Shown here: positions 15,524-50,448 of the stretch, piece by piece
How the letters are laid out: every line of letters starts with the position of its first letter
How positions within the stretch are numbered: position 1 is the first letter of the stretch
Source: Dyella sp. 2HG41-7
Lineage (GTDB): Bacteria; Pseudomonadota; Gammaproteobacteria; Xanthomonadales; Rhodanobacteraceae
DNA length: 64,000 bases
Direction of reading: 5' to 3'
NCBI RefSeq assembly: GCF_021390675.1
Contig: NZ_JAJEJV010000004.1
Coordinates: 2,108,001 to 2,172,000 of the forward strand
Program-made: the position numbers and the translations under genes
The notes under the pieces: generated by a model
Told to the model about the DNA's origin: nothing
What the model saw: the letters and a program-made list of their open reading frames with translations, nothing else
The model's database searches: none

Positions 15524-15715
15524 ATGCAGCCAAGCGAGCAAGGGCGCCGACGCTATCCGCCGGACGGGATTTTTCGGGAGGCAAAGGAGGTGGGCCCCGT
15601 GGCGTGCCGATGTAACGACGCGTGCCGGAACCCCTGCCAGGGCGAGTGCGGGTGCATCGCGTGCGCCGTGCGGTTTTGCACTGAGCAGTCCAAGGACCTG
15701 GGCATCGACGGCTGA
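15524..15715 (+). CDS. Cys-rich mini-protein (GRRRYP...GECGC family), element 1 copy
   Basis: 63 aa. It begins M.P.E.GRRRYP and has seven cysteines in the order C.C...C...C.GECGC.AC, suggesting a metal-bound knot; no export signal is seen. AGGAG lies six bases upstream of the ATG. A clear homologue lies at 49208-49459 in element 2, where it is translationally coupled to an SRAP gene; element 1 also has an SRAP gene, at 22993. Preceded by the third XRE-type palindrome. The family is not one I recognise. Confidence 0.7.
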   Translation: MQPSEQGRRRYPPDGIFREAKEVGPVACRCNDACRNPCQGECGCIACAVRFCTEQSKDLGIDG

Positions 15716-15775
15716 TGCCTTGCGAACGGGCGAAGCTGGCCTAGGGTCTGGGGATCGCCCTGCTCGGATCTTCTG

Positions 15776-16132
15776 ATGCTCACCCTCGATCGCCGGATCC
15801 AATCCTTGCTTGTTGTCCTGACGGCCTACTCCCTGTTGATCGGACTGATGATCACGGCCCCGCAGAACGCCCTGGGCTTTTGGCCCGGGCTGTTGGCCGG
15901 CGTCATCGGGTGTGTCCTCTGGCGCGACCTGCGGACACCCCCAACACTCCAACAAACCCGTCATCGTCTGCGGGTGGCCGGATCTCTCCTGGTCTTGGGG
16001 TTGACCCTGGTCCTGGCGCCACAGCGGGACATTCCCATCGCTGCCGCCCCCTTGGGCGTGCTCATGGCGATCACCGGGGCGTTGATCCTGGATCGGCGTG
16101 GGTTGAGCCGCTCCTCAAGCATGCCAAAATGA
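15776..16132 (+). CDS. Small integral membrane protein
   Basis: 118 aa with about four hydrophobic segments (residues 10-28, 33-48, 67-82, 88-105). The N- and C-termini are basic. It sits between the Cys-rich gene and the restriction-modification gene. No motif is recognised. Confidence 0.55.
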   Translation: MLTLDRRIQSLLVVLTAYSLLIGLMITAPQNALGFWPGLLAGVIGCVLWRDLRTPPTLQQTRHRLRVAGSLLVLGLTLVLAPQRDIPIAAAPLGVLMAITGALILDRRGLSRSSSMPK

Positions 16133-16187
16133 AGGGGACAGGCTGCCAAGAGGGCGGCCTAAGTCTTTGATGGAGAATGATGTTCCG

Positions 16188-19100
16188 ATGAGCGCCCTGC
16201 ATGACTTGCTCGACACCTACCGACATGCCGCCGTCACCGAGCGGGAAAAGGGCACCTACTTCGAGGAACTGATCTGCGCTTACCTGCGCCATGAGGCCAC
16301 CTACCAAGACCTCTATGAGCAGGTGTGGACCTATGCGGAGTGGGCGAGGGAACAGGGCATGGACGCGCGGGACACCGGCATTGACCTGGTGGCCAGGACT
16401 CGGGGAACCGGCGAGTTCCACGCCATCCAGTGCAAGTTCTACGCAGAGGACTACAAGGTCCAGAAGTCGGACATCGACAGCTTTTTCAATGCATCGAGCA
16501 AAAAGACCTTTGCCCATCGAATCATTGTCAGCACCACCAACAACTGGTCTGACCACGCCGAAGACGCCTTGGTCGATAAGCAGCCGCCCGTCAGCAAGAT
16601 TGACCTGTTCGCGCTCGAAAACAGCCAGATCGACTGGGCACGATTCAAAGCCCTCCACAAGGTCGAACTGAAACCCAAGAAGCGTCTGCTCGATCACCAG
16701 GACAGTGCGGTGCGTGCGGTGATGCAGGGCCTGGCCACCGCGGATCGCGGCAAGATGATCATGGCCTGTGGCACGGGCAAGACCTTCACGAGCCTGAAAA
16801 TTGCCGAGCGCATGGCCGGGCGGGGCAAACGCGTCCTGTTCCTGGTCCCCAGCTTGTCCCTGTTGTCCCAGACCCTCACGGAATGGACTCAGGAGAGCGA
16901 AACACCCCTTCACAGTTTCGCGGTGTGCTCCGACAGCGATGTGGGGAAGAAAAAGCGCCGCAAGGAAGACGACGAGGTCCAAACCTTCGTCCACGAACTG
17001 CGCTACCCGGCCACCACGGATGCCCGGCGCTTGGCTCAGGCCATGAAGGCTCGACATGACAACGAGCACATGAGCGTGGTGTTCAGCACCTACCACTCCA
17101 TCGACGTCATCCACGACGCGCAAGCGAACTTCGGGATGGCGGACTTCGACCTGATCATTTGCGACGAGGCGCACCGCACCACAGGCTTCACCTTCGCCGA
17201 TGACGACAATGAAAGTCATTTTGTGAAGGTGCACGATGCGGCCTTCATCAAGAGCGAGCGACGCCTCTACATGACCGCCACCCCGCGTATTTACGCGGAC
17301 AGCGCCAAAGCCACCGCCGAGCGGGACCATGTGGCCCTGTGCTCGATGGACGACGAGACGCTGTATGGCAAGCAGCTTTACCTGATCACCTTTTCCGAAG
17401 CGGTGAAACGCGAGTTGTTGGTGGACTACAAGGTCCTGGTGCTGGCCGTGGAAGAAAGCCACGTCAACCGTCGCCTGCAATCCTTGCTTGCCGGCGACGA
17501 CAACCACATCAAGGTGGATGACGCCGCCAAGATCATCGGTTGCTGGAAAGCCCTGGCCAAGCAGGGCTTGACCGAAGACCTTTTGGGCGATGACGCCCCC
17601 ATGCAGCGTGCGGTCGCTTTCTGCCAAGTGATTGAAATCGCCAAGGGGGCCAAAGCCCACAAGGTCAGCTCCAAGAACATCGCGGACATGTTCAAGGCGG
17701 TGGTGGACGCCTACCAGGAAGCCGAGGACATTGAGCCCGCTTCACGCCTGTCCTGTGAGGCCCGGCATGTGGATGGGGGCATGAATGCGGGCACCAAGGA
17801 GGAGAAACTCGACTGGCTCAAGGCCCAAGTGCCCGAGGGCACCTGTCGCGTGCTCTCCAACGTCCGCTGTCTCTCCGAGGGCGTGGACGTGCCCGCCCTG
17901 GATGCGGTGCTGTTCCTGACCCCCCGCAATTCGCAGGTGGATGTGGTCCAGTCCGTGGGGCGCGTGATGCGCAAAGCCCCGGGCAAAAAGCGTGGCTACG
18001 TCATCCTGCCTGTGGTGATTCCGGCTGGGGTGGAACCGCACGAGGCCCTGAACGACAACAAGACCTATGCCGTCGTGTGGCAAGTCTTGCAAGCCCTGCG
18101 ATCGCACGATGACCGCTTCGACGCCATGGTCAACAAGCTGGACCTGATTGGCCAAGACACGAAGAAGATGGAGGTCATCGCCATCAGCGACAAGGTGCAG
18201 CGCAAACCCGCGCATGCCAAAGCGGGAAAATCGAACCAGGCTGCCGGGCGGGGCCAGTTCGGAATTGGCGCCCCGCAACGCAATCATGGTGAGAAGCCCG
18301 ATCAGGGCCAGTTGGCATTTGAGATCGGGGAAATCGAGAAAGCTATCTACGCCAAGGTGGTGAAGAAGTGCGGCAATCGGCGCCACTGGGAAGAGTGGGC
18401 CAAGGACATTGCCAAAATTGCACGCACGCACATCGATCGCATCCACGCGATCATTGAAGATCCGAATCACGCCAACGAGCGGGCGGCCTTCGACGCATTT
18501 GCGGCTGAGTTGCGGGATGACCTCAACGACAACATCACCGACGACGAAATTGTGGAGATGCTGGCCCAGCATCTGATCACCAAACCCGTCTTCGACGCGT
18601 TGTTCGCGGATTACAGCTTCGCCCAACACAATCCGATGAGCCAGGCGATGCAGGGTGTGCTGGATGTCCTGCAGGAGCACCGGCTGGATAAGGAAGCCGA
18701 CACGCTCGAACTTTTCTACGAGAGTGTGCGCGAACGGGCTCGGGACATCGACAATGCGGCCGGCAAGCAGAAGATCGTCGTGGAGCTCTACGACAAATTC
18801 TTCGCCACCGCCTTTCCGAAACTCCGCGACAAGCTGGGCATCGTCTACACCCCGGTGCCGGTGGTGGACTTCATCATCCACAGCGTCGCGCATTTGTTGC
18901 AGACCGAATTTGGGCAGTCGCTTGGCGATAAGAATGTCCATATTCTCGATCCCTTCACCGGAACGGGAACGTTCATCACGCGACTCTTGCAAAGTGGCCT
19001 GATCGCCCCGGAACAACTCCCCTACAAATACAAGAATGAGATCCACGCCAATGAGCTCGTGCTGTTGGCCTACTACATCGCGGCCATCAACATCGAGGCG

Positions 19101-21086
19101 GTGTATCACGGCTTGGTGGGCGGCCACTACGAGCCCTTTGAGGGAATCTGCCTGACTGACACCTTCCAGATGTATGAGAAGGAGGATTTGGTCGATCAGA
19201 TCCTGGTGGACAACAGCAAGCGCCGAAAGCGCCAGAAGGGGCTGGACATTCGAGTCATCCTCGGCAACCCGCCCTATGCGGTTGGGCAAGAGGACGCGAA
19301 CGAAAACAACCAGAACGTGGACTACCCGTATCTGAACCATCGCATTGAAGCGACCTATGCGGCCCGCTCCAATGCAACGAACCTCAGAAACCTTTACGAC
19401 AGCTACATTCGGGCGATCCGATGGGCGAGTGATCGCATCGGGAATGCAGGGGTCATTGGGTTTGTGACCAACGGTGGATTTCTGGAGGCCGGCACGGCAG
19501 ACGGCATGCGTCGGTGCCTCGCGGAAGAGTTTTCGAGCCTCCACATTTTCAATCTCCGGGGCAACCAGCGGACCATCGGCGAAGTGTCGCGCCGGGAGGG
19601 CGGAAAGATTTTTGAGGGCGGCAGTCGCGCCCCCATCGCCATCTCGTTGCTGGTCAAGAATCCGGCCAAGTCGGAGCGGGGCGCCATCCACTATCACGAC
19701 ATTGGTGATTACCTGACGCGTGACGAAAAGCTGGAGCGAATTGCGGGGTTTCAAAGCATCGCGGGGATCCAGGAGTGGCAGACCATCCAACCCGACGCCC
19801 ATGGCGATTGGCTCCGTCAGCGGGACGCTGGCTTCGAGCAGTTCATCTCGATGGGGGACAAGAAGGGTGGTGGCGATCGCCTGTTTGAAAACTTCTCCCA
19901 GGGTGTGACCACCGCCCGGGATGCGTGGTGCTACAACTCAAGCAAGGCCACACTGACCCGGAACATGCAGAGCTTCATCGAGTTCTACGACGAACAAGTG
20001 ACTCATTTTGAGAACGCCTGCGCGGGCCTGGGTCGCAAGGAGCGCGAAGAGCGTCTTGAACACCTGATTGAGACGGACCGAACCAAGATCAGTTGGACGC
20101 GAGGCCTGAAAAAGGAGCTGATCAAGGGCAAGCGGTTTGAGTTTTCGGATGAGGCCTTGGTGAAGAGCGTGTATCGACCCTTCGCCAAGCGCTGGCTGTA
20201 TTTCGACCGCAGGTTCAATGAGTATGTCTATCAGTTGCCGCGCCTGTTTCCCCATGCGGAGGCCGAAAACAAGGTCATCATGGTGAAGCAACGCTGGAAT
20301 GGCGTGGGGCAGTTTGCCTTGATGGTGGATGCGATCCCCGAGTTCCAGACGGACGGGGGAACCCAGTGCTTCCCGCTCTATCTCTACGGGAAAAGCGAGG
20401 AGACAGAGGGCGAGGAGGGCCTCTTCACGGCGGGGCAAGACGCCCCGGCGGAGGTGCGACAAGACGCCATCACGGACGCAGGATTGGCCCATTTCCAGGC
20501 GGCCTATCCTGGTGAGGCCATCACCAAGGAAGACATCTTCTATTACGTCTACGGGCTGCTCCATGCCCCGGACTATCAGGAACGGTTCGCGGACAACCTG
20601 GCCAAGGAGTTGCCGCGCGTGCCCTGCGTCAAGGCGATCGCCGATTTCCGGTTCATCGTCCAGGCGGGTCGCGGCTTGGCGGAGCTGCATCTGAACTACG
20701 AAAATGTCCAACTCTTTCCGGCGAAGATCGAGGCCGTCGGCGGCAAGTTGAAGGATGAGGACTATCGCGTTGAAAAAATGAAGATCCCGAAGAAGGGTAA
20801 GGGGAAGGACCTGACCACCTTGGTCTACAACACCAAGATCACGGTGACCGGCATTCCTTCGGAAGCCTATGACTACGTGGTCAACGGCAAGCCGGCGCTG
20901 CAATGGGTGATCGAACAGCAATGCGTCGATCCCGATAAGCCCACCGGCATCGTCAATGACGCCAACGACTGGGCCGAGGAGACCATGGACAATCCGCGCT
21001 ATCCGCTGGACCTGTTCCTCAGGATGGTCACCGTGAGCATGGAGTCCATGAAGATCGTGCGCTCCCTTCCTAACTTGGATATTTGA
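16188..21086 (+). CDS. Type ISP (single-polypeptide) restriction-modification enzyme
   Basis: 1632 aa. One chain combines an N-terminal Mrr-like nuclease (Asp66 in GIDLVAR and the Q-x-K at 81-83), an SF2 helicase/translocase (Walker A ACGTGKTF near 193-200, DEAH at 326-329, ATPRIY, and GRVMRKAPGKKRG), and an N6-adenine methyltransferase (DPFTGTGTF near 920 and NPPY near 1026). A C-terminal target-recognition region follows. Order and length match LlaGI/LlaBIII-type enzymes, which methylate one strand of an asymmetric site and cut after converging translocation. ATG at 16170 or TTG at 16167 are alternative starts. An Abi_C/HEPN-like gene follows after eight bases. Confidence 0.9.
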   Translation: MSALHDLLDTYRHAAVTEREKGTYFEELICAYLRHEATYQDLYEQVWTYAEWAREQGMDARDTGIDLVARTRGTGEFHAIQCKFYAEDYKVQKSDIDSFFNASSKKTFAHRIIVSTTNNWSDHAEDALVDKQPPVSKIDLFALENSQIDWARFKALHKVELKPKKRLLDHQDSAVRAVMQGLATADRGKMIMACGTGKTFTSLKIAERMAGRGKRVLFLVPSLSLLSQTLTEWTQESETPLHSFAVCSDSDVGKKKRRKEDDEVQTFVHELRYPATTDARRLAQAMKARHDNEHMSVVFSTYHSIDVIHDAQANFGMADFDLIICDEAHRTTGFTFADDDNESHFVKVHDAAFIKSERRLYMTATPRIYADSAKATAERDHVALCSMDDETLYGKQLYLITFSEAVKRELLVDYKVLVLAVEESHVNRRLQSLLAGDDNHIKVDDAAKIIGCWKALAKQGLTEDLLGDDAPMQRAVAFCQVIEIAKGAKAHKVSSKNIADMFKAVVDAYQEAEDIEPASRLSCEARHVDGGMNAGTKEEKLDWLKAQVPEGTCRVLSNVRCLSEGVDVPALDAVLFLTPRNSQVDVVQSVGRVMRKAPGKKRGYVILPVVIPAGVEPHEALNDNKTYAVVWQVLQALRSHDDRFDAMVNKLDLIGQDTKKMEVIAISDKVQRKPAHAKAGKSNQAAGRGQFGIGAPQRNHGEKPDQGQLAFEIGEIEKAIYAKVVKKCGNRRHWEEWAKDIAKIARTHIDRIHAIIEDPNHANERAAFDAFAAELRDDLNDNITDDEIVEMLAQHLITKPVFDALFADYSFAQHNPMSQAMQGVLDVLQEHRLDKEADTLELFYESVRERARDIDNAAGKQKIVVELYDKFFATAFPKLRDKLGIVYTPVPVVDFIIHSVAHLLQTEFGQSLGDKNVHILDPFTGTGTFITRLLQSGLIAPEQLPYKYKNEIHANELVLLAYYIAAINIEAVYHGLVGGHYEPFEGICLTDTFQMYEKEDLVDQILVDNSKRRKRQKGLDIRVILGNPPYAVGQEDANENNQNVDYPYLNHRIEATYAARSNATNLRNLYDSYIRAIRWASDRIGNAGVIGFVTNGGFLEAGTADGMRRCLAEEFSSLHIFNLRGNQRTIGEVSRREGGKIFEGGSRAPIAISLLVKNPAKSERGAIHYHDIGDYLTRDEKLERIAGFQSIAGIQEWQTIQPDAHGDWLRQRDAGFEQFISMGDKKGGGDRLFENFSQGVTTARDAWCYNSSKATLTRNMQSFIEFYDEQVTHFENACAGLGRKEREERLEHLIETDRTKISWTRGLKKELIKGKRFEFSDEALVKSVYRPFAKRWLYFDRRFNEYVYQLPRLFPHAEAENKVIMVKQRWNGVGQFALMVDAIPEFQTDGGTQCFPLYLYGKSEETEGEEGLFTAGQDAPAEVRQDAITDAGLAHFQAAYPGEAITKEDIFYYVYGLLHAPDYQERFADNLAKELPRVPCVKAIADFRFIVQAGRGLAELHLNYENVQLFPAKIEAVGGKLKDEDYRVEKMKIPKKGKGKDLTTLVYNTKITVTGIPSEAYDYVVNGKPALQWVIEQQCVDPDKPTGIVNDANDWAEETMDNPRYPLDLFLRMVTVSMESMKIVRSLPNLDI

Positions 21087-22992: not shown

Positions 22993-24012
22993 TCATGACG
23001 ACCCGGGTGGCGGCTCTTCACCCTCTGCATCAAATCCCTTCTGCACAATCTGGTGCTGGTAGAACGCACCAATCGGGTCTTCCAAGATCGCATATTGCGC
23101 CCCGAGGTTCTTGGGATCGGGATCCAGCCACGCGTCCAGGTTCTTCGGCTTCAACGGGATCACACACCGGTTGTGGCCGGCCGCCAAGACCTCCGGGGGC
23201 GGTTCGCGGGTCACCGCAGCGAAGGTGAAATAACCCCCTTCGTCGCCTTCCGGCTCGACATACCGATACAGGCACGCCAGCAGCATCTCTTGCTCGGGTT
23301 CCGGGCTGAAAACAATCTCAATGTTTTGCTCTTTCTCGCCCGGCGCCAGCGCACGTTGCTGGTTGTCGTGAAGCAAGACGGACTCATAGAACCGCCGCGC
23401 CACGACCACCGCATGGAAGTGCCCGAAGATCCCGCGCCACGCGGTTTTCAGTGAATCCATTCGCGCGTTATACGTGCCAGGTTTCAGGCGTTCGTCCTTT
23501 TCCGTCCACCCCACCAACCGGCATCGGTAGCGCGCCGGCACGATCCGGCGTTCCCCCGTGGCGGGATCGCGGATCAGGATGGGGCAATAGTGCCCCGGCC
23601 AGATCCGGGTGAACCCATCGTGTTGCGCCGCTGCCTCATGCGCCTGCGCCATGCGCGCATTCGCCTCATCAATCTTCTTCTGAGCGATCCGCGCCTCGTT
23701 CTCCGCCGTTTTCGTGGGCATCTTGGCCAGTTTTTGCTGGGCCTTGATCAGGCGCTCGGTTTGCTCCACCACAATTTCTTCGTAGTGCAAAATCACATCA
23801 CGATAGGCCTGGACCACCGCGGCCTTGACGTCCTGTTCGTCCTGGCCCACGGCCTGGTCGAAGGCATCACGCACGGCCTTGGGCACCAGCTTCGTGAACG
23901 TGCCTTTTTTGCCCTGGTGGAAAAACAGATCGACAAAGGCTTTCAGATCCAGCGTGCCGCCGTAGCGTTGGTATTTGCGAAAATCCGAATAAACCTCAGC
24001 GGAATAGCACAT
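22993..24012 (-). CDS. Large SRAP (YedK/HMCES-type) abasic-site-crosslinking protein
   Basis: 339 aa. SRAP proteins use Cys2 to form a covalent bond with abasic sites in single-stranded DNA. Cys2 is present, with the conserved Asn in YNAR (Asn182), Glu in FYES (Glu210) and His in AGHNRC (His280). E. coli YedK is about 220 aa; this protein has about 110 extra residues between Cys2 and the NAR motif, including a coiled coil (about 75-125). The homologue at 49456-50448 shares the insertion. It is transcribed away from the next gene. It likely protects transferred or damaged ssDNA; that use is inference. Confidence 0.88.
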   Translation of the reverse strand: MCYSAEVYSDFRKYQRYGGTLDLKAFVDLFFHQGKKGTFTKLVPKAVRDAFDQAVGQDEQDVKAAVVQAYRDVILHYEEIVVEQTERLIKAQQKLAKMPTKTAENEARIAQKKIDEANARMAQAHEAAAQHDGFTRIWPGHYCPILIRDPATGERRIVPARYRCRLVGWTEKDERLKPGTYNARMDSLKTAWRGIFGHFHAVVVARRFYESVLLHDNQQRALAPGEKEQNIEIVFSPEPEQEMLLACLYRYVEPEGDEGGYFTFAAVTREPPPEVLAAGHNRCVIPLKPKNLDAWLDPDPKNLGAQYAILEDPIGAFYQHQIVQKGFDAEGEEPPPGSS

Positions 24013-24462: not shown

Positions 24463-24496
24463 GTAAACTTGAATTCTGCACAAAATTCAAGTTTAC
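24463..24496. promoter_or_regulatory. Perfect 13-bp inverted repeat overlapping the umuD-like start region
   Basis: GTAAACTTGAATT, eight-base spacer, AATTCAAGTTTAC. The right arm ends four bases before the ATG at 24501, leaving no room for a Shine-Dalgarno sequence. A TTGAAT/17/TTTACG pair inside the repeat could be the promoter. The arrangement fits an operator for the extended UmuD protein and a leaderless mRNA; both are inference. Confidence 0.55.
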
Positions 24497-24500: not shown

Positions 24501-25088
24501 ATGCCTCCCTCCCAACACGGCGGTGCCCGCCCCGGCGCAGGCCGCAAACCCGGCGGTCCCTTTGGCGAGCAAACCCAGCAAATCCGGGTCCCGCTCTCTC
24601 AGGTTGAGACCGTCGTGGCGTTCCTCGACGCTTACCGGCAGGACACCACGGCGGAGCATCCTCAGCCGGTCGCCATCGCGCCTGATCTGAACCTGGTGGC
24701 GTTTGTCAGCCGGGTGCCGTGTGGGTTTCCGAGCCCTGCCCAGGATTACGAAGAGCACCTGGATCTTGGGGCTGAGATGGTCATTCCCGGGCATGAGGCG
24801 AGCACCTTTATCTTGCAGGTGCGGGGCTGGTCCATGCATGGCGCCGGAATCTTCGATGGCGACCGTGTGGTGGTGGATCGGGCGCTCCATCCCATTCGGG
24901 GCGATGTCGTGGTGGCGATCGTGAATAACGATTTGACGATCAAGACTCTGGGTGAGGAGGACGGTAAACCCGTCCTCATCCCCGAGAACAGCCACTTTCC
25001 CAAAATTACGTTCGATGAAGGCGATGAACTCGTGGTCTGGGGTGTCGTGACCCACTGCCTGAAATCCTTCAAACGCGGACGACGATGA
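24501..25088 (+). CDS. UmuD-like SOS protein with 50-residue N-terminal extension
   Basis: 195 aa. The self-cleavage core is intact: Cys74-Gly75 cleavage site in PCGFPSPAQDY, catalytic Ser111 (GWSMHGAG) and Lys148 (LTIKTL). Spacing equals that of E. coli UmuD (C24-G25, S60, K97) after adding exactly 50 residues. The extension starts with a basic GGARPGAGRKPG and resembles a DNA-binding arm. Acinetobacter UmuDAb also has an extended N-terminus and acts as a repressor, so a cleavable repressor role is plausible here. It begins the UmuD-X-UmuC cluster; a perfect palindrome covers its promoter region. Confidence 0.88.
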   Translation: MPPSQHGGARPGAGRKPGGPFGEQTQQIRVPLSQVETVVAFLDAYRQDTTAEHPQPVAIAPDLNLVAFVSRVPCGFPSPAQDYEEHLDLGAEMVIPGHEASTFILQVRGWSMHGAGIFDGDRVVVDRALHPIRGDVVVAIVNNDLTIKTLGEEDGKPVLIPENSHFPKITFDEGDELVVWGVVTHCLKSFKRGRR

Positions 25089-25515: not shown

Positions 25516-25516
25516 C

Positions 25517-26824
25517 ATGGAACCCCCAGAACGAAGGTGCCTGGCGCTGGTGGACGTCAACAACTGCTACGTGAGTTGTGAACGTCTGATGCGCCCGGAT
25601 CTGGAACGCACCCCGATGGTTATCTTGTCGAACAACGACGGGGTCTGCGTCAGCCGCAGTGCCGAGGTGAAGGCATTGGGCAGCGTCCCGATGGGGACGC
25701 CTTGGCACAAGATGAAAAACCTGGCGCGGCAACACGGCATCTTGGCGATGTCCAGCAACTACGAACTCTACGGCGACATGTCCCGTCGATTTCATGGGTT
25801 GCTGGCGACTTGGGTGCCGCCGCATTGCCAGGAGATTTACAGCATCGATGAGAGCTTCCTGGACTTCGGTGGCCAGAGGATCGACCGCACCGCCACTGGT
25901 CACGCGATCAAGCGCCAAGTGCAACAGTGGCTGGGATTGCCCGTGTGCGTGGGCTTCGGCGGGAGCACGAAGACCCTCGCCAAGTTTGCCAATCACGTGG
26001 CGAAGAAACGCCCCGAATGGCAGGGCGTGTGCGACCTCACCGCGCTGAGCGCGGAGGAGCGACTGGCTCTGCTGGATCAGTTCGAGGCCAAGGATGTGTG
26101 GGGCATCGGGCGGCGCTTGTCCGAACAATTGAAAGAGCACGGCATCCACACCGCGGGCGACCTCGCGCGGTGCGATCCCAAGCGCGCCCGTGAGCGGTGG
26201 GGCGTGGTCATGGAACGCACCATCAACGAGCTCAATGGCGTGTCCTGCATCGCCTGGGAAGACGAGCCACCCACAAAGCAGCAGATCATTTCCTCCCGAT
26301 CGTTCGGTGGTCCGGTCTATACCGTGGACGAGTTGGCCGATCCCGTGCGCATGCACGTGGGCCGCGCGGCAGAGAAACTCCGCGCGCAAGGCTCCGTGGC
26401 GGGGCGCCTGGGCGTGTTCATCACGACCAACGCCTTCCGCCCGCAAGACCCCCAATACTCACCCATCCGCACCATCCGGCTGGCCGTGCCCACGGACGAC
26501 ACCGCCACGCTGACGGTGTGGGCCGTGCAGATCCTCAAATCCATCTTCCGGCCTTATCGCTTCGTCAAGGCTGGTGTGATGCTCGATGACTTGCGACCAA
26601 AGAGTGTGATGCAAGGGTCACTCTTCGATGCGCTGCCATCGGAGCAGGACATGAAGCGCGAGAAGCTGATGGGCGTGATGGATAAAGCCAACGGCAAATG
26701 GGGGCGGGGCTCCTTGGGCATCGGCTCGGCCGGCGTGAAAGGCGAGCGCGATTGGTCGATGCAACGCGGGATGCTGTCGCCCCGTTACACGACCCGCTGG
26801 AACGAGCTGCGCGAAATCAGTTGA
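25517..26824 (+). CDS. umuC: UmuC-like Y-family DNA polymerase (Pol V catalytic subunit)
   Basis: 435 aa (E. coli UmuC is 422). It performs error-prone translesion synthesis with cleaved UmuD. Catalytic motifs are visible: LVDVNNCYVSCER at the N-terminus (Asp and Tyr steric gate), SIDESFLDF near residue 112 (catalytic Asp-Glu), an HhH region (VWGIGRRLSEQL near 195), and a DUF4113-like C-terminus ending near TRWNELREI. Its start follows the stop of the preceding gene by one base. Confidence 0.92.
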   Translation: MEPPERRCLALVDVNNCYVSCERLMRPDLERTPMVILSNNDGVCVSRSAEVKALGSVPMGTPWHKMKNLARQHGILAMSSNYELYGDMSRRFHGLLATWVPPHCQEIYSIDESFLDFGGQRIDRTATGHAIKRQVQQWLGLPVCVGFGGSTKTLAKFANHVAKKRPEWQGVCDLTALSAEERLALLDQFEAKDVWGIGRRLSEQLKEHGIHTAGDLARCDPKRARERWGVVMERTINELNGVSCIAWEDEPPTKQQIISSRSFGGPVYTVDELADPVRMHVGRAAEKLRAQGSVAGRLGVFITTNAFRPQDPQYSPIRTIRLAVPTDDTATLTVWAVQILKSIFRPYRFVKAGVMLDDLRPKSVMQGSLFDALPSEQDMKREKLMGVMDKANGKWGRGSLGIGSAGVKGERDWSMQRGMLSPRYTTRWNELREIS

Positions 26825-27126: not shown

Positions 27127-28386
27127 CTACTTAAACGGGGGTTGGTCCAATTGCTGCTTCAGCTGGACCAGCACGAGGCAGTCCGATTTCGCTCGGGTGA
27201 TTGCGTTGTAAAGCAGACGACGTTTGTGTTCGTCGTCACCAGCCACGGCCGCGGGCCAAAGCACCACCACATGCTCGAACTCCCTGTTTTTCGCACCATG
27301 AATGGACATGGCTCGTAGACCCCGATCAAGCGGGCGCTGGAAGCGGCGGCGGTTGGCGTAAATCATCTGGATGCGCTCAGCCAGCGTTTCTCGGGTGATG
27401 GTGGTCGGACCGCGGGTGCGACTTAATCGGTCGAGCCACGATGCCACCTCGCGGACCAAAGCCTGGTCATGAAGGGCGTGCAGGGCCGCGAGCGCTTGGG
27501 CCGGGGTAGCTTCTTTGGGCAGAGCAATGCCTTCCATGGCGATTTCGGCGGCCCTGGTTTCGCTCTTCTCCCACGCAATCGCGTAAGGACCCATTCCTCG
27601 GCTGTTTGATTTGGTGCTGGACCAAGTGACGACGCCCTCTGCGAAGTGTTTGATGGTTGGCGTGATGATGGCCAGCCCGCCGCCCTTAAGTCCGGCAATG
27701 CGCGTGTTCAGATATCCGCCCGCCATGGGGGCGGTTGCTGTGAGGGAAACGGTGAAGCCTTTCCCAGTCGGCAGAGCCCGGCCACCCCGAACTGCAGCTG
27801 CGGCATCGAGCAAGGAGGCGACACGGGTGCGCATCGGTTGTTCGAGAGCGATGTGGTCTTTCTGAGCGCTCAACCACTCCCACGCGGGATTGGGCCTCAG
27901 CTCTTCATTCAGGCACTGGAATTCATCGGCCGCGATCAGCGCGGTCAGCTCCGTGGCAAGGCATTGAACGATGCTCAGCCGGGAATGAGAGAGATCCTGG
28001 GCTTCATCGATCACCAGGATGGGAAAGGAGGCCTTGACCCAGCGCACGACCTCTGGGTGGGCGAGGATCAGAGCGGCAACAGCGCAGATGTCGTCATATT
28101 CGGTCTCCAGGGGAATGCGGGCGCCCTGTTGCACGGCCAAGGACTGCCACCGTCGAACGATCCGTGCGGCAAAGCTGTCCAGCGTGGTGCACTCGTAACG
28201 CCTTCCAAGCCCTGGCACCGATGCCAGACGATCATCGAGCCTTCGGCGCGCGCCGTGCATGAAGGTCAGGGCGAGCACTTTCTGGCCGTCCTTGGGCGGC
28301 TGGGCCTCGATGATGGCGGCCAGCCGTTGCATCAACTGATACGTTTTGCCGCAACCCGCTCCGCCCGAAAAGACGGTGACACTCAT
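27127..28386 (-). CDS. gajB: Gabija helicase subunit GajB-like (UvrD-type)
   Basis: 419 aa. SF1 helicase motifs are present: Walker A GGAGCGKT (residues 8-15), motif Ia ALTFMHGARRRL, TLDSFAARI, Walker B VIDEAQDLS near 120, QPMRTRV, SIHGAKNREFEHVV and YNAITRAKSD. It is somewhat shorter than GajB of Bacillus cereus (about 494 aa). The ATG overlaps the stop of the OLD-family gene by four bases. In Gabija systems this subunit works with the GajA nuclease to degrade phage DNA. Identification rests on the pair. Confidence 0.85.
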   Translation of the reverse strand: MSVTVFSGGAGCGKTYQLMQRLAAIIEAQPPKDGQKVLALTFMHGARRRLDDRLASVPGLGRRYECTTLDSFAARIVRRWQSLAVQQGARIPLETEYDDICAVAALILAHPEVVRWVKASFPILVIDEAQDLSHSRLSIVQCLATELTALIAADEFQCLNEELRPNPAWEWLSAQKDHIALEQPMRTRVASLLDAAAAVRGGRALPTGKGFTVSLTATAPMAGGYLNTRIAGLKGGGLAIITPTIKHFAEGVVTWSSTKSNSRGMGPYAIAWEKSETRAAEIAMEGIALPKEATPAQALAALHALHDQALVREVASWLDRLSRTRGPTTITRETLAERIQMIYANRRRFQRPLDRGLRAMSIHGAKNREFEHVVVLWPAAVAGDDEHKRRLLYNAITRAKSDCLVLVQLKQQLDQPPFK

Positions 28387-30173
28387 GGCTGGAATACCCA
28401 GGCCTGGTCGCGTTGGACGAAGCGAGGGGTGGCTGTTCCTGCGCACGCTTTGGCGATGGCCTGGAAGAGTTCCGATGCTCGGGCGCGGCACGCGGCGCTT
28501 TCACAGATGGCTTCGGCAACGGCCTCATACAACACGAGATCGCACTTTTTGTTTTTTATTTTCATGTGCGCGATCACGCCAGCAAGGTTGGCCCCATCAA
28601 GCTCTGGCACGTCGTTGGTCAAGCCCGCAAGGGACGCCACATCCGCTTCGAGGATCCAGCCGACGGCATCTTCAATCATTTGACCGTCGGGCCAGCGGAT
28701 CACCACGGCAGGCGGTTGGGCCAAGGCTGCAAGATTGCGAACGTAACGTTGCCCCTCATCATCACCATCCACGAGGCAACACACCCGAGGATGGATCCGC
28801 GACAGGTCACATGTCGTTTCCACGACCTTCGCGTCCTCAGTGGGCACCACGCCGACTTCAAGCCCGAACGCATGGGCATGCTCGCCACCCCAGCCTTGAT
28901 GCAGCATGAGGGGCCTGAGCACGGTCTTGAGAAGCAGGTGATCGGAGCGGCCTTCCGGCACCAAGACCGTGGCATGCATCAATGCATCGATCACCTCGGT
29001 GCGATTGTGCTGATAAAACCTGCGCTGCCAGTTAGCTGCATCCGGTCCCAACTTCTTGGCTAGGAACGGTTCCGCCGAAAGCCGCCCTTGGACGTTTCTC
29101 AGCATCAGAACCGACGTGGGATCGGCCATGGCGGCAATGGTCGGCGAGTGCGTGGTGATGAAGGTCTGGGATGAGAGGGCCTGCACACGCAGAACCAGTT
29201 GCTGCTGGGTTGCCGGCGGCAGGTGCAGTTCCGGTTCTTCCAGTGCCATCGTGAAGCCGTCCCTAGCTTCGGCGCGAAGGCGACCCAGTTCGAGCAAAAG
29301 AAAAAGGCCTTGAAGTGAGATGAGCCCGTTGCCTTGCCGTGCGGCAGGGACACTGGCTGCATCTCCCACCGCATAGTGCGGCGAGACCGCATCCAACACC
29401 GAGCGACTGTCGGTGCTGGTCACCCGGAGCGTGAGCCGAGGTGACATGGCGATGCATCGCGCGACCTCGTTGTTGACGCTGTTGATCAGAGGAGCGATCT
29501 GGGGGTCTTCCTCGATGGCTCTTTCTGGCGTCCGAAGTTGATTGCGTTGGGCGAGGATCGCATCGGCTGGCTGCGCTGCGGCTGCTTGAAGGGTGCGCCG
29601 GAACAGTTCGCTACCCCAGGACAGAACTCGGTCCCAGGTGCGGCTGGCCCGCACCAGGAAAAAGCCGAATTGCTGCACGAGTTTTGGCGGAACGCCAATC
29701 GGGGAGTCATCATCGAACGGGTCCATGACGCCATCGTGGTCATGGAAGTAGCGAACCACTTCAACCGTCAGCGATGGGCGGTCGAAGTAGGCCTGCACAC
29801 CGATCTGACAACACAGTTTCCAGTTGGCATCCGTCCGGGCAGGATGGACCGCGCCCTCCGCATCGTCCCACCACTTTGGGACAGCGCGCCCATCTCGGAA
29901 CCAATCCGGGTGGTCACTGGGGTCATCGCCCTCGAAGCCGGTGATCGTGGCGACGAGTTGGATCCGATCGGCGGGCTGTGGATCGGAACCAAAGAAGTCG
30001 TGTTCGGTGAGGTCCCGGATCAATCGATCACGGCCCAAAAGGAGGGTCAGGGCCTCAATGACGGTGGTTTTGCCGGTGTTGTTGGCCCCCACCAGGACCA
30101 CATGAGGCTTGAATCGAAGGTATCCCTCGCGGATGCCCCGATAGTTCCTGATCGAAAGATCGGCCACTCTCAT
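28383..30173 (-). CDS. gajA: Gabija nuclease subunit GajA-like (OLD-family ATPase with TOPRIM)
   Basis: 596 aa (B. cereus GajA 578). The N-terminal ABC-type ATPase has Walker A GANNTGKT at residues 29-36, an EEPELHLPP Walker B near 310, and the H-loop THSPT. The C-terminal TOPRIM domain has LVPEGRSDHLLLK near 405 and VDGDDEGQ near 468. This is a class 2 OLD protein because a UvrD-like helicase gene follows directly. GajA nicks phage DNA and is activated on nucleotide depletion. GTG at 30179 is an alternative start; ATG at 30173 has AGGG nearby. Confidence 0.88.
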   Translation of the reverse strand: MRVADLSIRNYRGIREGYLRFKPHVVLVGANNTGKTTVIEALTLLLGRDRLIRDLTEHDFFGSDPQPADRIQLVATITGFEGDDPSDHPDWFRDGRAVPKWWDDAEGAVHPARTDANWKLCCQIGVQAYFDRPSLTVEVVRYFHDHDGVMDPFDDDSPIGVPPKLVQQFGFFLVRASRTWDRVLSWGSELFRRTLQAAAAQPADAILAQRNQLRTPERAIEEDPQIAPLINSVNNEVARCIAMSPRLTLRVTSTDSRSVLDAVSPHYAVGDAASVPAARQGNGLISLQGLFLLLELGRLRAEARDGFTMALEEPELHLPPATQQQLVLRVQALSSQTFITTHSPTIAAMADPTSVLMLRNVQGRLSAEPFLAKKLGPDAANWQRRFYQHNRTEVIDALMHATVLVPEGRSDHLLLKTVLRPLMLHQGWGGEHAHAFGLEVGVVPTEDAKVVETTCDLSRIHPRVCCLVDGDDEGQRYVRNLAALAQPPAVVIRWPDGQMIEDAVGWILEADVASLAGLTNDVPELDGANLAGVIAHMKIKNKKCDLVLYEAVAEAICESAACRARASELFQAIAKACAGTATPRFVQRDQAWVFQP

Positions 30174-30338
30174 GATCACCCTGTCCCTGAAAGCCTGTCC
30201 CCGCCTCGAACTATATCGAAACCGGGAACGACAAGAGGCACAGAAAGGAGCGACCGCTTGGAGGCTTGATCCTCAAATGCGGCGTGTTGGACGCCAAGTC
30301 GTTACGCTCAGGTCGCCACCCACAACAGGAGTTTGTCG

Positions 30339-35926: not shown

Positions 35927-35946
35927 TGGTGCCCAGAAGAGGACTC
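35927..35946. repeat. attL of element 2 (20-bp direct repeat)
   Basis: TGGTGCCCAGAAGAGGACTC is identical to 51866-51885, the 3' end of tRNA-Leu including CCA. It marks the left junction; homology ends at both sides. Confidence 0.9.
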
Positions 35947-36072
35947 ACACTGGCTGTCCAAGGGAATCCGATGAAGTCCAGTGCGCTCCGAAAAACGCGG
36001 GCTTTTCTAGGCATTTATCGCGTTTTGTTGTCCAGTGGCGTCCGAGGTGTATTCATTGCATCCGGCTTTAAG

Positions 36073-36094
36073 TGTGGGTAGATTGTGGGTAGAT
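36073..36094 (+). repeat. Arm-type direct repeats near attL
   Basis: Two adjacent perfect copies of TGTGGGTAGAT (36073-36083 and 36084-36094), just upstream of the integrase ATG. The same pair recurs at 51790-51812 beside attR. Confidence 0.75.
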
Positions 36095-36109
36095 CACAGG
36101 TGGATTCCC

Positions 36110-37324
36110 ATGCTCACGCTGCCGCAAATCAAGAACGCCAAGCCGCGTCCCAAGACGTACAAAATGGCCGACGGTTTCGGCCTAACATTGCTGGTCCAGT
36201 CGGATGGCGCAAAGCTTTGGCGCTTTCGATACCGCTTTGCCGGCAAGGAGCAAATGCTCAGCTTCGGTCAGTGGCCACAGGTATCGCTTGCTGAGGCTCG
36301 TCAGTCGCGTGACGATGCGCGTACGCAACTACGTGGTGGTTTGAACCCCGGCGCCGTACGAAAACAAACGAAGGCACAGGCGAAGGTCGCCGCGGCCAAT
36401 TCGTTTCGCGCGGTCGCCGAGGAGTGGATCGAACTCAATCGGGGCAAGTGGCGTGCAACGCATGTCGTACGTGTGCAATCACAACTCGACCGCGACATTC
36501 TCCCGTCGCTTGGCGATCGACCGATTAGCAACATCTCGCCTGCCGAAGTGCTGGCGGTCGCAAAGCGCGTGGAGGGCAGGGACGCGCTCGATCAGGCGAA
36601 ACGTTGTCTGCAGCGGGTAGCGTCCATCTTTGCGCTTGGCGTGCGCACGTTGCGGTGCGAGACGAATCCGGCACGAGAACTTGTCGGCGTGATTAGGACA
36701 CGCAAAGTGCAGCATCGCGCAGCACTCACCTTTGATCAGTTGCCAGATTACCTTGGGCGTTTGGAGAATGTTGGCGCCGGTGCCGAAACGAAAGGTGCCC
36801 TCGAATTCCTTCTCCTCACCGCGACACGCTCTGGCGAGACTCGCGGCATGCGGTGGTCAGAGGTCGACATGGACAAAGGGCTGTGGCGTATTCCAGGTGA
36901 ACGGACGAAGACCGGTATGGAGCACCTCGTACCGTTGAGCAAGCAAGCCAAGGCCATCTTGGAACGCATGCAGCCGCTCACCGGCAACGGTGACTTGGTT
37001 TTCCCAAGTCCGGTGAAGAAGAACGAGCCGCTGCACGCTAACGCGCTGTTGGCCGCGCTACGGCGCATGGGATACGAGACTGGTGACATCACTGCACACG
37101 GCTTCCGCGCCACGTTCAGCACGACCCTAAACGAACTGGGGCATAACCCGGACGTGATCGAGCGCGCGCTGGCGCATGTGCCAAAAGACAAGATCCGCGC
37201 GGCCTATCACCGCTCCCAGTATCTCGAAGAACGGCGGGTGCTGCTGCAGGCCTGGGCGGACATGATCGATGCGAAGCGGAAGGGCGCGAACGTGGTGCCG
37301 ATGCGCAAAAAGGCAGTTGGGTAA
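36110..37324 (+). CDS. int: P4-type tyrosine recombinase integrase
   Basis: 404 aa. The N-terminal DUF4102-like arm-binding domain begins LTLPQIKNAKPRPK; the central core-binding domain spans about 95-185. The catalytic domain has RSGETRGMRW (first Arg), HGFRATFSTTLNELGH (His-x-x-Arg and His) and a C-terminal Tyr in AAYHRSQYLEERR. The ATG at 36110 is preferred over 36035 because AGGTGG lies six bases before it and the added N-terminus overlaps arm repeats. It catalyses integration at tRNA-Leu. Confidence 0.95.
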   Translation: MLTLPQIKNAKPRPKTYKMADGFGLTLLVQSDGAKLWRFRYRFAGKEQMLSFGQWPQVSLAEARQSRDDARTQLRGGLNPGAVRKQTKAQAKVAAANSFRAVAEEWIELNRGKWRATHVVRVQSQLDRDILPSLGDRPISNISPAEVLAVAKRVEGRDALDQAKRCLQRVASIFALGVRTLRCETNPARELVGVIRTRKVQHRAALTFDQLPDYLGRLENVGAGAETKGALEFLLLTATRSGETRGMRWSEVDMDKGLWRIPGERTKTGMEHLVPLSKQAKAILERMQPLTGNGDLVFPSPVKKNEPLHANALLAALRRMGYETGDITAHGFRATFSTTLNELGHNPDVIERALAHVPKDKIRAAYHRSQYLEERRVLLQAWADMIDAKRKGANVVPMRKKAVG

Positions 37325-44871: not shown

Positions 44872-44913
44872 TGCGCTCACCGGCAACCGCACACCTATCA
44901 GAGGAAACGACAC

Positions 44914-46752: not shown

Positions 46753-46753
46753 C

Positions 46754-47122
46754 ATGCGATCCCCAAATGACCATAAGCGTGTTATGGAAGTGGTCGACCG
46801 CATCCTCAGTTATGACCCTGGGCCCGGAGCAACGAAGCGCGGTGTTCCCGCCGACTACGCCGGCGATGATCCGAGTCTGTGCAATGCGCGGACCAAATCG
46901 GGGCGCCCATGTCGTTCGCTCGGGCTCGAACCGAACGGTCGATGCAAATGGCATGGCGGTTTGTCTACGGGACCAAGGACCCCTGAAGACAAAGCGACCA
47001 CGGCGGGGAACTTCTCTTGGGAGAAGGAGAAGCTCAAAAGGCAGGTCGTGCGGCAATTGCAGAAGACGGGGTATCTGCCCGAACGCCCGTTTGCGACGGA
47101 CTCTCCGCCGACGCGCAAGTGA
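46754..47122 (+). CDS. HGGxSTGP-motif protein (phage-associated)
   Basis: 122 aa. It has the family signature: C.A.TKSGRPCRS, then NGRCKWHGGLSTGPRTPEDK. Cysteines and His probably bind zinc. Members lie in prophages and plasmids, often near packaging genes; the exact role is unknown. Its start follows the tape-measure-like stop by one base. Confidence 0.75.
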   Translation: MRSPNDHKRVMEVVDRILSYDPGPGATKRGVPADYAGDDPSLCNARTKSGRPCRSLGLEPNGRCKWHGGLSTGPRTPEDKATTAGNFSWEKEKLKRQVVRQLQKTGYLPERPFATDSPPTRK

Positions 47123-47310
47123 CTTGCCGTGCGCGCTGGCCGGTTCACCTTCCAACTGAGCAACCACATTCGAGCCCGTAAGCGGCATCTGCCAACGGGC
47201 TCCCGGTGGGATCGCAGCTGGATACCCTCCGTCCTACCCACACCGGCCGCCGAGCACCTCGGACGCGACTGCGCTACCCTCAGGCCGCCAACTAAAGGGG
47301 AGGGAGCTTC

Positions 47311-47829
47311 ATGGCAGACGGGACCAAGGCATGCCCTGCATGCGCAGAGACGATCCAGGCCGCGGCGAATAAGTGCCGCTTCTGCGGAACGGATATCGAG
47401 GCGTATACCGCGAGCCGAGAGCAGACGGTGGAGCGCACCCTGTTCTCCGGGCACCCGCGAGTGATTTATATCTTCCACCAGTACGTCATGTGCGTGATCA
47501 CGCTCGGCATCGCGCTGTTCTTTTATTGGATCCGTAGCCTATCGACGACGTTCGTCATCACGACTCAGCGCGTGCGCGTCGAACAAGGTTTGTTCTCGAA
47601 GGTGCAGCGAAACCTCGAATTGTTTCGCGTTGATCACTTCGATGTGGTGAAGCCGATTGGAATGCAGGCGTTGGGCTTGTGCGAAGTGCTTTTGCACTCG
47701 TCCGACGAAGGCATGCCCTCGGTGCTCCTGTACGGTATCCCTGGCCTCGAGCAGCTCGCCGACGAATTGCGGGAATGTTCGCTGCGTGAACGTACTCGTC
47801 GTCGCGTGATGCCGATTGAGCGGATGTAG
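47311..47829 (+). CDS. Zinc-ribbon plus bacterial PH-domain membrane protein
   Basis: 172 aa. Residues 8-26 form a zinc ribbon (CPACAETIQAAANKCRFCG). A hydrophobic hairpin follows near 55-80 and then a bPH2-like domain (TTFVITTQRVRVEQGLFSK ... LYGIPGLEQLADELRE). GGGAGGGAG lies before the ATG. Similar proteins sit at membranes as scaffolds; cargo role in this element is unknown. Confidence 0.75.
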   Translation: MADGTKACPACAETIQAAANKCRFCGTDIEAYTASREQTVERTLFSGHPRVIYIFHQYVMCVITLGIALFFYWIRSLSTTFVITTQRVRVEQGLFSKVQRNLELFRVDHFDVVKPIGMQALGLCEVLLHSSDEGMPSVLLYGIPGLEQLADELRECSLRERTRRRVMPIERM

Positions 47830-47880
47830 CAGCCCCTGAAATTAGTGTGTCGGTCAAATTCGCCAGAAAAAGGAATGATC

Positions 47881-48084
47881 ATGGCAAGCATCAAAGAGCC
47901 AATATCGCTACCAAAGCATTGTCCAGTCACAAACAAGTCAATTGTCTTGACAGCTCTCCGAGTTTCCCTTCCCGGCGGCGCTGCGACCGAAATTACAAAG
48001 AAGAGTTGCTCAAACATTGCACAGTGCTTCACGAAGTATGGATCCGTTGAACAAATTCCCGGATGTCTCATCAAGACGCTGTAG
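47881..48084 (+). CDS. Small hypothetical protein
   Basis: 67 aa, no motif beyond paired Cys (KHCPVTNKS ... KSCSNIAQCF). AAGGA precedes the ATG. It starts an AT-richer islet. Confidence 0.4.
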   Translation: MASIKEPISLPKHCPVTNKSIVLTALRVSLPGGAATEITKKSCSNIAQCFTKYGSVEQIPGCLIKTL

Positions 48085-48133
48085 CCGATGCCTGGATTCT
48101 CCACAACGGAATGTTCAAAACGGCGGAAAGAAA

Positions 48134-48490
48134 ATGACGACTGAAGTGCTCGGCCTTAGTGACAAGCAGTTAGCCATTTTGCGTGGAGTGGTCGAATTTC
48201 TTCGAAATTTGGCAACTATGTTTGCGTTTTCAACTGGTGCTGCCTATTTCATAGTGCGCCAGCCGTTTCACGCGTTGCATGGTGTTGTTTCATACGTAAT
48301 CGGTGGCATTCTTTATTTGTTAGCGCAGATTGGAATTTCGTGTGCCTTCTTTACGTTCGTTAACATCATGCTGACCAATTCATCTTGGTCACCAAGACAA
48401 CTTCGTTGGGCCAACAGGATTGTATTTTGGACTGCTGAAGTATTGTGCCAAATTCCCCTCTTTGCCTTTTTAAGTTTCAAGGGACAATAG
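48134..48490 (+). CDS. Small multi-pass membrane protein (AT-rich islet)
   Basis: 118 aa with four hydrophobic segments (about residues 15-35, 42-58, 63-80, 98-115). GGAAAG precedes the ATG. Base composition is visibly AT-richer than the element's phage-like genes. A HEPN-like gene follows about 160 bases downstream, so the pair could be a cargo toxin or defence unit. Function unknown. Confidence 0.55.
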   Translation: MTTEVLGLSDKQLAILRGVVEFLRNLATMFAFSTGAAYFIVRQPFHALHGVVSYVIGGILYLLAQIGISCAFFTFVNIMLTNSSWSPRQLRWANRIVFWTAEVLCQIPLFAFLSFKGQ

Positions 48491-48647
48491 TTCGATTTCT
48501 GTAGCGGGAATCGCAATTGTGCTGCGAATCCCGATAACGCTTGGCATTGCGCAAACGCGATATGGTTAGTACCCACTGTTCTACCCATGCGTGGCGAGGC
48601 ACAACAAAACGGCTTCGATGACAATAAACAAAATTATTGGGTGACAA

Positions 48648-49187
48648 ATGCCACAACCTTTGATGCCGGGAAAAGGTGTTCAGTATGGTCCGAACACGGT
48701 CCTCAAGCGCCCCGATCTAGCTGCGGCGATCGCCAATGTGTGCGCAAATTGGAGCCTGGTCGAAAATCACGTCATCTCAATTTACGCTTTTCTCATGGGC
48801 GACTATCTCCCTAGGGTTCCTGGATATGCTCCACCAACGCATCCGGTTGCCCGCCAAGTAATGGACGCGCTAAATGCCTTCAATCCCAAATTGGAGCTTT
48901 TGTGCAAGCTGCTTGATTGGCGCGAGCCGGAATTGTCTCAGCAGTTTAGGGAAGGGAATGCCATGAGACTTCGGAAGCGTTATAACGAGCGAAGTGAAGT
49001 TGCGCACGGAACGTGGGCTGTATGCGATGACTATCCAGATGCACTAATACTCGCGCCGACTTTTGGGGCGATGATGATATACAAGATCAGAGATTTTGAC
49101 GCTATCTCAGAGCGAATCCTTGAAGAGGTGCGTGCGCTAGGAGAATTGACGAGCCACATTTACAAAAAAAGGGAACAGCGAGGGTGA
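48648..49187 (+). CDS. HEPN-like hypothetical protein
   Basis: 179 aa, helical. It has the segment RYNERSEVAHGTW: Arg115-x4-His120 with a flanking Asn, the pattern of HEPN ribonuclease active sites. The N-terminal helix (LAAAIANVCANWSLVENHVI) is in the usual HEPN position. It belongs to the AT-rich islet. A ribonuclease/toxin role is inference. Confidence 0.6.
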   Translation: MPQPLMPGKGVQYGPNTVLKRPDLAAAIANVCANWSLVENHVISIYAFLMGDYLPRVPGYAPPTHPVARQVMDALNAFNPKLELLCKLLDWREPELSQQFREGNAMRLRKRYNERSEVAHGTWAVCDDYPDALILAPTFGAMMIYKIRDFDAISERILEEVRALGELTSHIYKKREQRG

Positions 49188-49207
49188 GCATGTGAATCGG
49201 GGAGCAA

Positions 49208-49459
49208 TCAGCTCCAATCCCCAAACCGATACGCGCGCAACGCGCGATCTTCATCGAGCGCTAAATCAGCCTTAAAGAATTGCGGAACGTCGCTTATAAA
49301 TTCTTGGAAGCGGATCATGCAGGCGGAACAGCCGCACTCGCCGGCGCACTTCGGGTCGCATGTCACGACGCAGGTACATGGCACGGGATCTACATGACTT
49401 GCCGTGTAGTACCCGTTGGACTCGGGATAGCGCCTGCGCCCTTCTTCATTTGGGTTCAT
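49208..49459 (-). CDS. Cys-rich mini-protein (GRRRYP...GECGC family), element 2 copy
   Basis: 83 aa. It begins MNPNEEGRRRYP and has seven cysteines in C.C...C...C.GECGC.AC, matching the protein at 15524-15715 of element 1, with an extra acidic C-terminal tail. Its ATG overlaps the stop of the SRAP gene by four bases, so the two are translationally coupled. The family is not one I recognise; partner function with SRAP is inference. Confidence 0.75.
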   Translation of the reverse strand: MNPNEEGRRRYPESNGYYTASHVDPVPCTCVVTCDPKCAGECGCSACMIRFQEFISDVPQFFKADLALDEDRALRAYRFGDWS

Positions 49460-50448
49460 ACAGCCTCCGCCTTGTCGGATACCAACTCATGTTGGTAGTA
49501 CACATCGGGCGGGGTGTCGATAATCTCAAACATAGCGTTTAGGTGATGTGGATCCGGCGCAAGCCACGCGTCGAGATTTTCCGGTTTGATGGCGACGACG
49601 CAGCGGTCATGGCCGGCAGCGAGAACTTCGGGCGGCGGATCTCGCGTGATGATCGCGAACGAGTAGAACCCTGGCCCGTCGTCCGTATCCTCGACGTAGC
49701 GCCAAAGGCAGGCGAGAAAGAGATCCTGCTTCGGCTCCGCCTCAAACCGAATCTCGACGGCGATATCTCGCTCGCCTGGTGCCAGTTCACGCTGGTGCAG
49801 ACGGTGCAGGCTCACCGATTCATAGAACTTGCTCGCTATGACAACGCCGTGGTTGTAGCCGAACAGTTTCTTCCAGACGGTCGACAGCTTGTCTCGTCTG
49901 GCGTTGTACGTTCCTGGCTTCTCGACCTCGTCTTGCGCCGACCAACCGGGCAGGCGGCAACGGTAACGCATCGGAACGATCATGCGCTCACCGGTCGCGT
50001 GATCGCGCATCAACACGGGGCAGTACGAGCCAGGCCAGATGCGACCGTAGCCGTCCGTCTTGGATTGGTCGTTCAGCTCGCGAAGCTTGGCCTCGGCTGC
50101 AGCGATCTTGTTGGTGGCAACGCGGACATCATTTGCCGCCTTCTTGGTAGGCTTGGCGCCGGCAAGCACCGTCTCCGCTTTCACCTTCCGCTCCGTCTGC
50201 TCGGCGACTTCCTTCTCGTAGACGAGCGCAGCCGAGCGGTAGGCCTCGATCGCTACGGCATTGGCTTCGGCTTCGTCCGGTGTTCGCGGATCGGCGAAAG
50301 AATCGCGCATCGCCTTGGGAACCTTTTTTACCCAGTCGCCGGACTTCTTGCGCTCCCAGAACATCTTCACGAACGCTTTAATGTCGAGCTTGCCGCCGTG
50401 ATGTTCGTACTTGCGGAAGTCCGCGTAGATCATCGCCGAGTAACACAC
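49456..50448 (-). CDS. Large SRAP (YedK/HMCES-type) protein, element 2 copy
   Basis: 330 aa. Cys2 (MCYSAMIYADF), YNAR, FYES and AGHDRC carry the four SRAP catalytic positions. The insertion with a coiled coil (EKEVAEQTERKVKAE) is shared with the element 1 copy at 22993-24012; the two are clear homologues at roughly half identity by eye. It should crosslink to abasic sites in ssDNA. The Cys-rich mini-protein follows in the same operon. Confidence 0.88.
   Translation of the reverse strand: MCYSAMIYADFRKYEHHGGKLDIKAFVKMFWERKKSGDWVKKVPKAMRDSFADPRTPDEAEANAVAIEAYRSAALVYEKEVAEQTERKVKAETVLAGAKPTKKAANDVRVATNKIAAAEAKLRELNDQSKTDGYGRIWPGSYCPVLMRDHATGERMIVPMRYRCRLPGWSAQDEVEKPGTYNARRDKLSTVWKKLFGYNHGVVIASKFYESVSLHRLHQRELAPGERDIAVEIRFEAEPKQDLFLACLWRYVEDTDDGPGFYSFAIITRDPPPEVLAAGHDRCVVAIKPENLDAWLAPDPHHLNAMFEIIDTPPDVYYQHELVSDKAEAV

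Follow-up and report, generated by a model that had tools for sequence, protein, structure and literature searches.

We know of no dedicated bacterial partner of YedK, the Escherichia coli representative of the SRAP family (PF02586), to which human HMCES also belongs. Proteins of the YedK/HMCES type become crosslinked to abasic sites in DNA through a thiazolidine, and active-site roles are described for their Cys2 and for an Asn, a Glu and a His (PMC9436759). Among the open-licence PubMed Central papers listed by our searches, the only candidates for such a partner are two zinc-chelating domains that Aravind et al. (2013) describe in neighbourhoods of SRAP and Ku genes (PMC3765255). Compact multi-cysteine segments of another kind are described as the CXC/pre-SET zinc clusters (Zn3Cys9) and the AWS motif of SET2 (Zn2Cys7), where two zinc ions share one thiolate (PMC3447885). 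Here, we describe a small protein with seven conserved cysteines, termed the mini-protein, which is encoded twice in a 64,000-nt stretch of Dyella sp. 2HG41-7 (contig NZ_JAJEJV010000004.1, positions 2,108,001 to 2,172,000; the window), once in each of two elements that also encode a large SRAP protein. The balance of the evidence tilts slightly towards the mini-protein being a seven-cysteine accessory factor of DNA-damage processing that is most often associated with SRAP.

Linkage of mini-protein and SRAP genes

The two mini-proteins of the window are identical at 26 of 51 residues (51% over 51 aa, BLASTP E 2e-17), and both fit the patterns M.P.E.GRRRYP and C.C...C...C.GECGC.AC by which the preliminary description, made from the sequence alone, had correctly located and related them. 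A profile of 22 mini-proteins, used with a cut-off of E <= 0.001 on 233 genomes of the host's family, gave 49 matches in 35 genomes, a small number being weak or interrupted by an internal stop. A class-level sample, for which at most 14 candidates per genome were scored among the matches listed, held mini-proteins in 2 of 369 genomes, both from the same family. Of 34 stretches in a genome contig collection that fitted a 13-row alignment, 17 were confirmed, and these belong to Dyella, Frateuria, Rhodanobacter and one Lysobacterales metagenome-assembled genome. IMG/VR added 27 loci; with mini-protein 2 as the sole query, three plasmids were found in PLSDB and no match among the INPHARED phages.

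A SRAP gene lies within 300 bp of 13 of the 49 family mini-protein genes (0.02 expected), within 3 kb of 15 (0.09 expected) and within 10 kb of 19 (0.28 expected), the expected numbers being derived from SRAP count and genome size with even placement assumed. The nearest SRAP gene is on the same strand in 12 of the 13 close pairs, and in the thirteenth, from G229, a large SRAP gene on the strand of the mini-protein gene also lies 65 bp upstream. At the level of whole genomes, SRAP is present in 25 of the 35 that bear a mini-protein against 80 of the 198 others (p = 8e-4, without correction for relatedness). The same arrangement extends to other replicons: a SRAP gene is found upstream of 9 of the 27 IMG/VR loci, and plasmid p1 of Dyella sp. 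BiH032 carries a small gene, a SRAP gene and a mini-protein gene consecutively, so that the neighbours occur on an integrative element (in the window), a plasmid and contigs of a virus collection.

The closest contact between the two genes is a shared stop and start. In 20 pairs from the window and loci L063 to L129 the mini-protein gene follows a SRAP gene at a distance of up to 700 bp, and in 11 of these the two overlap by 4 bp within an NTGA, with gaps of 10-37 bp in eight and of 379 bp in one; the overlap reported earlier for the second element is confirmed, the stop of SRAP 2 and the start of mini-protein 2 sharing ATGA. The NTGA overlaps are divided between five canonical SRAPs and six of the large class, to which both SRAPs of the window belong, some of the pairs being closely related. 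The order is reversed in L078 and L081, where the mini-protein gene comes first. These arrangements are best read as meaning that, on mobile elements, mini-protein and SRAP are in many cases translated together, and a partnership of the two proteins is likely.

Pairing with both classes of SRAP is also reflected in the history of the family. In a tree of 69 rows and 69 columns, of which 37 of 63 inner branches are open, two supported branches unite mini-proteins that adjoin different SRAP classes, namely L063 with L105 (97) and L079 with L083 and L090 (96), and the whole tree requires six changes of class among 24 paired mini-proteins. The mini-protein of L063, next to a canonical SRAP, and that of L105, next to a large one, are 78% identical over 68 aa. 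The labels 'unpaired' and 'large' are clustered on the tree (0 of 500 shuffles as low). That mini-proteins have exchanged partners across the two SRAP classes speaks for a connection with what SRAPs do.

A further small family, F3 (~75 aa, motif DFWP.FAG.AD; the two members compared with Pfam gave no convincing match), stands directly upstream of the SRAP gene in L064, L065, L079, L080, L083, L090, L108, L109 and L116 and of the mini-protein gene in L078. There are 18 SRAPs with F3 within 400 bp, and F3 is also abundant away from SRAP; as the third gene of an obligate module it was rejected, being present in 75 of the 233 genomes and often in several copies.

A family defined by seven cysteines

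The pattern C.C...C...C.G.CGC.AC, with its seven cysteines, is kept in all 38 rows of a chosen alignment and is fitted exactly by 61 of 69 domain hits; of the eight that deviate, three have one residue more, two have D for G, one has a residue fewer, and L102 and L126 are without some of the first cysteines. Most members begin with a PT.EG..RYP-like stretch, and mini-protein 1 has an eighth cysteine. A longer open frame encloses the coding stretch of mini-protein 1. The ratio of non-synonymous to synonymous substitution rates (dN/dS) was 0.05-0.19 in all eight mini-protein pairs tested, with dS above 1 in some, and the mini-proteins are therefore real genes under purifying selection. On two short contigs, L117 and L119, a mini-protein-like start is fused to a longer C-terminal part, for which Pfam gave no match in L119.

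The mini-protein is not itself a SRAP, and the family is one for which we found no description: the 38 rows had no convincing profile match in Pfam or PHROGs, nor had the two window proteins in NCBIfam, PDB sequences were likewise without a convincing match, and nothing on it appeared among the open-licence papers listed by our searches. A confident model of mini-protein 2 (predicted local distance difference test, pLDDT, 92.4; predicted template-modelling score 0.81) gave with Foldseek a single, unrelated PDB match at E 6.9, which is a weak negative in that short cysteine-rich folds are taken to be hard for Foldseek, and no convincing match in BFVD.

The mini-protein is probably a metal-cluster protein. 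Its seven cysteines could hold a compact cluster, and two zinc ions with one thiolate in common would call for exactly that number, as in the likewise seven-cysteine AWS motif of SET2 (PMC3447885). Its spacing, C.C...C...C...C.C..C, differs from the nine-ligand CXC consensus with a C-terminal CXN as given in that source.

The large SRAP proteins

Both large SRAPs of the window exceed the PF02586 gathering score of 27.1 bits (57 and 69.4 bits) and are 53% identical to each other over 330 aligned positions. Cys2 of the MCYSA start, the Asn of NAR, the Glu of FYE and the His of AGH are invariant in 12 of 12 aligned large SRAPs, and the last three also align with canonical SRAPs in a profile-profile alignment. 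The AlphaFold model of SRAP 2 has the SRAP fold, with Foldseek returning 1zn6 as best match (E 1.5e-10), followed by human HMCES and E. coli YedK. What sets the large class apart from canonical SRAPs is some 95 extra residues ahead of the aligned core, including a pair of long helices (in SRAP 2, residues 57-96 and 102-126) that the model places after the first strand and ahead of the SRAP core. The coiled-coil insertion that the preliminary description had attributed to both proteins is thus predicted to be a two-helix hairpin in SRAP 2, and SRAP 1 aligns through the same part.

In G227:C78 and G229:C30 (L096 and L087), an extra, divergent SRAP-like gene lies on the opposite strand a few hundred bases from a large SRAP-mini-protein pair.

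Translesion and end-joining genes near mini-proteins

Genes for an S24 peptidase and a UmuC-type polymerase share a stretch in 7 of 68 examined, namely the window, L070, L071, L076, L078, L080 and L081, and because they occur in the same stretches, part of the mini-protein family belongs in the setting of damage tolerance. A palindrome with 13-bp arms (24463-24496) lies directly 5' of the S24 gene of the window, and one lies directly upstream of six of the seven S24 genes, L076 being the exception.

A second association is with other repair genes. A subclade of the mini-protein tree formed by L085, L091 and L095 (Shimodaira-Hasegawa-like approximate likelihood ratio test 97) lies near genes with Pfam matches to Ku and LigD. 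Three of the 49 family mini-proteins, all in this one subclade, have Ku at a distance of up to 10 kb, against 0.14 expected for the 29 in Ku-bearing genomes, and in L085 (9739-11158) mini-protein and Ku genes stand head to head with 203 bp between their matched parts; the window's own genome gave no Ku match. This context points to DNA repair in general. It recalls the domains of Aravind et al., likewise predicted to bind metal and encoded beside SRAP and Ku genes, but those are described as Zn-ribbon-like and their neighbourhoods hold both SRAP and Ku, whereas SRAP-adjacent and Ku-near mini-proteins occur in different places; the comparison is one of descriptions only (PMC3765255).

Weighing the partnership

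The preliminary description had taken the recurrence of the two genes as a pair to suggest a functional partnership. Recurrence holds in that they are neighbours far more often than chance would have it, with an overlap in over half of the 20 pairs in which the mini-protein gene follows SRAP; an obligate pair it is not. Taken literally, the outcome that the preliminary description had named as refuting its proposal has been observed: the mini-protein occurs mostly without SRAP genes, since 30 of the 49 family members have none within 10 kb (an upper bound, some being on short contigs), and obligate pairing is refuted. A number of further findings weigh on the same side, against the partnership. 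There is no SRAP match in 18 of the 27 IMG/VR records, and roughly nine in ten of the 144 above-cut-off SRAP places in the family are without an adjoining mini-protein. On the poorly resolved tree the 'canonical' label, which takes in two loci with a SRAP 1.2 and 2.7 kb away, is not clearly clustered (29 of 500 shuffles as low). In the first element of the window, mini-protein 1 and SRAP 1 do not form an operon because they are separated by 7.3 kb and lie on opposite strands. The PDB and BFVD searches offer no fold match to guide a function, and, for the patterns tried, the regions 5' of the SRAP operons showed neither a common operator nor an SOS box except for a single TAGTA-type match (L104).

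The absence of SRAP from so many loci favours a different account, in which the mini-protein stands on its own as a small metal-binding or regulatory protein carried by mobile elements and phages, brought next to SRAP by shared accessory stretches with no joint function. Several phage-like contigs carry a short form of the mini-protein, often with a DFLS-like end, amid small unnamed open frames, and two of the three PLSDB plasmids, both from Rhodanobacter denitrificans, have it in the vicinity of genes for transfer or pili with no annotated SRAP within 9 kb. We nevertheless think this account rather unlikely, as hitchhiking would hardly yield 4-bp overlaps that recur with both classes of SRAP, differing SRAP classes beside closely related mini-proteins, or the Ku/LigD subclade.

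One proposal, close to that of the preliminary description, is that SRAP and mini-protein shield the abasic sites of single-stranded DNA that enters when an element is transferred, and possibly counter a glycosylase-type defence of the host as well. The crosslinking of abasic sites by YedK and HMCES (PMC9436759) would suit such a role, as would the presence of pairs on the tRNA-inserted second element, a plasmid and virus-collection contigs and the fact that both SRAP matches of the window's genome fall within the window. The Ku/LigD context, however, indicates general repair, and Brig1 immunity is described as unaffected by deletion of E. coli yedK (PMC11078745); we regard the proposal as unlikely. 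Similarly doubtful is a more specific form of the partnership that accommodates the Ku/LigD context, with the mini-protein as a dedicated zinc-cluster partner that would read, stabilize or release the crosslink of SRAP to DNA at an abasic site and would have been recruited to Ku/LigD end joining too, a small adaptor, disseminated by mobile elements, for DNA ends that are broken or lesion-capped.

Regulation was considered from two sides. Short palindromes lie upstream of several SRAP operons (among others L080, L090, L103, L104, L107, L116 and that of mini-protein 2), at scattered positions and with no common sequence, and because the SRAP operons are without a shared palindrome, SOS control of the pair finds no support in the upstream patterns tried. 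That the mini-protein might itself be a zinc-cluster DNA-binding regulator of a SRAP/UmuDC cassette is quite improbable: it is small and cysteine-rich with a conserved EG..RYP start, and homologous XRE regulator genes (family F17) directly precede both mini-protein 1 and its nearest relative, that of L076 (61% over 56 columns, the best identity for mini-protein 1), but its gene usually lies 3' of SRAP (the 20 pairs, against the two reversed loci), the SRAP operons share no operator among the patterns tried, and it has no helix-turn-helix or zinc-finger match in Pfam.

The two elements of the window

The second element is a stretch of ~16 kb inserted at a tRNA-Leu gene together with an integrase (Table 1); for the first, no convincing direct repeats were found at its bounds. 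A GajA/OLD-like AAA ATPase at 28386-30179 is possibly part of element 1. Adjoining mini-protein 2, a 179-aa protein at 48648-49184 without a family match contains an ERSEVAH stretch, which we take to resemble the HEPN R(X4)H motif.

Table 1. Coordinates of features in the window (aa, amino acids; HTH, helix-turn-helix)
Feature	Coordinates	Strand	Remarks
XRE-type HTH regulator, directly 5' of mini-protein 1	15023..15364	+	Pfam HTH_31/HTH_3; family F17
Mini-protein 1, element 1	15524..15715	+	63 aa, begins MQPSEQGRRRYP; seven motif Cys and one extra
Type ISP restriction-modification enzyme, element 1	16167..21086	+	PF18135, PF22240, PF13156; PADLOC type IIG model
Large SRAP 1, element 1	22993..24012	-	PF02586
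LexA/UmuD-like S24 peptidase, element 1	24501..25088	+	PF00717; preceded by palindrome
UmuC-type Y-family polymerase, element 1	25517..26824	+	PF00817, PF11799, PF13438; open frame begins 25436
att repeat, element 2, left copy	35927..35946		Exact 20-bp repeat
Tyrosine integrase, element 2	36035..37321	+	PF00589 and others; open frame from 36035
Mini-protein 2, element 2	49208..49459	-	83 aa, begins MNPNEEGRRRYP; seven Cys
Large SRAP 2, element 2	49456..50448	-	PF02586; GTG start; 4-bp overlap with mini-protein 2; model pLDDT 84.3
att repeat, element 2, right copy	51866..51885		Exact 20-bp repeat; 3' end of tRNA-Leu (tRNA call)

A possible role at abasic sites

The most economical mechanism would be that of an accessory factor that joins SRAP in acting on either the DNA or the crosslink. 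The mini-protein would bind SRAP, DNA or both and may help SRAP to cap abasic sites, or to hand on the capped site, with the damaged or single-stranded DNA of a mobile element as the putative target; the cassette that encodes it may also carry a UmuD/LexA-like peptidase and a UmuC polymerase. A small gene that overlaps SRAP genes of two classes, and is also found near Ku and LigD, is a concrete and testable candidate for a SRAP partner, and it gives a handle on why mobile elements bring their own abasic-site and translesion cassettes.

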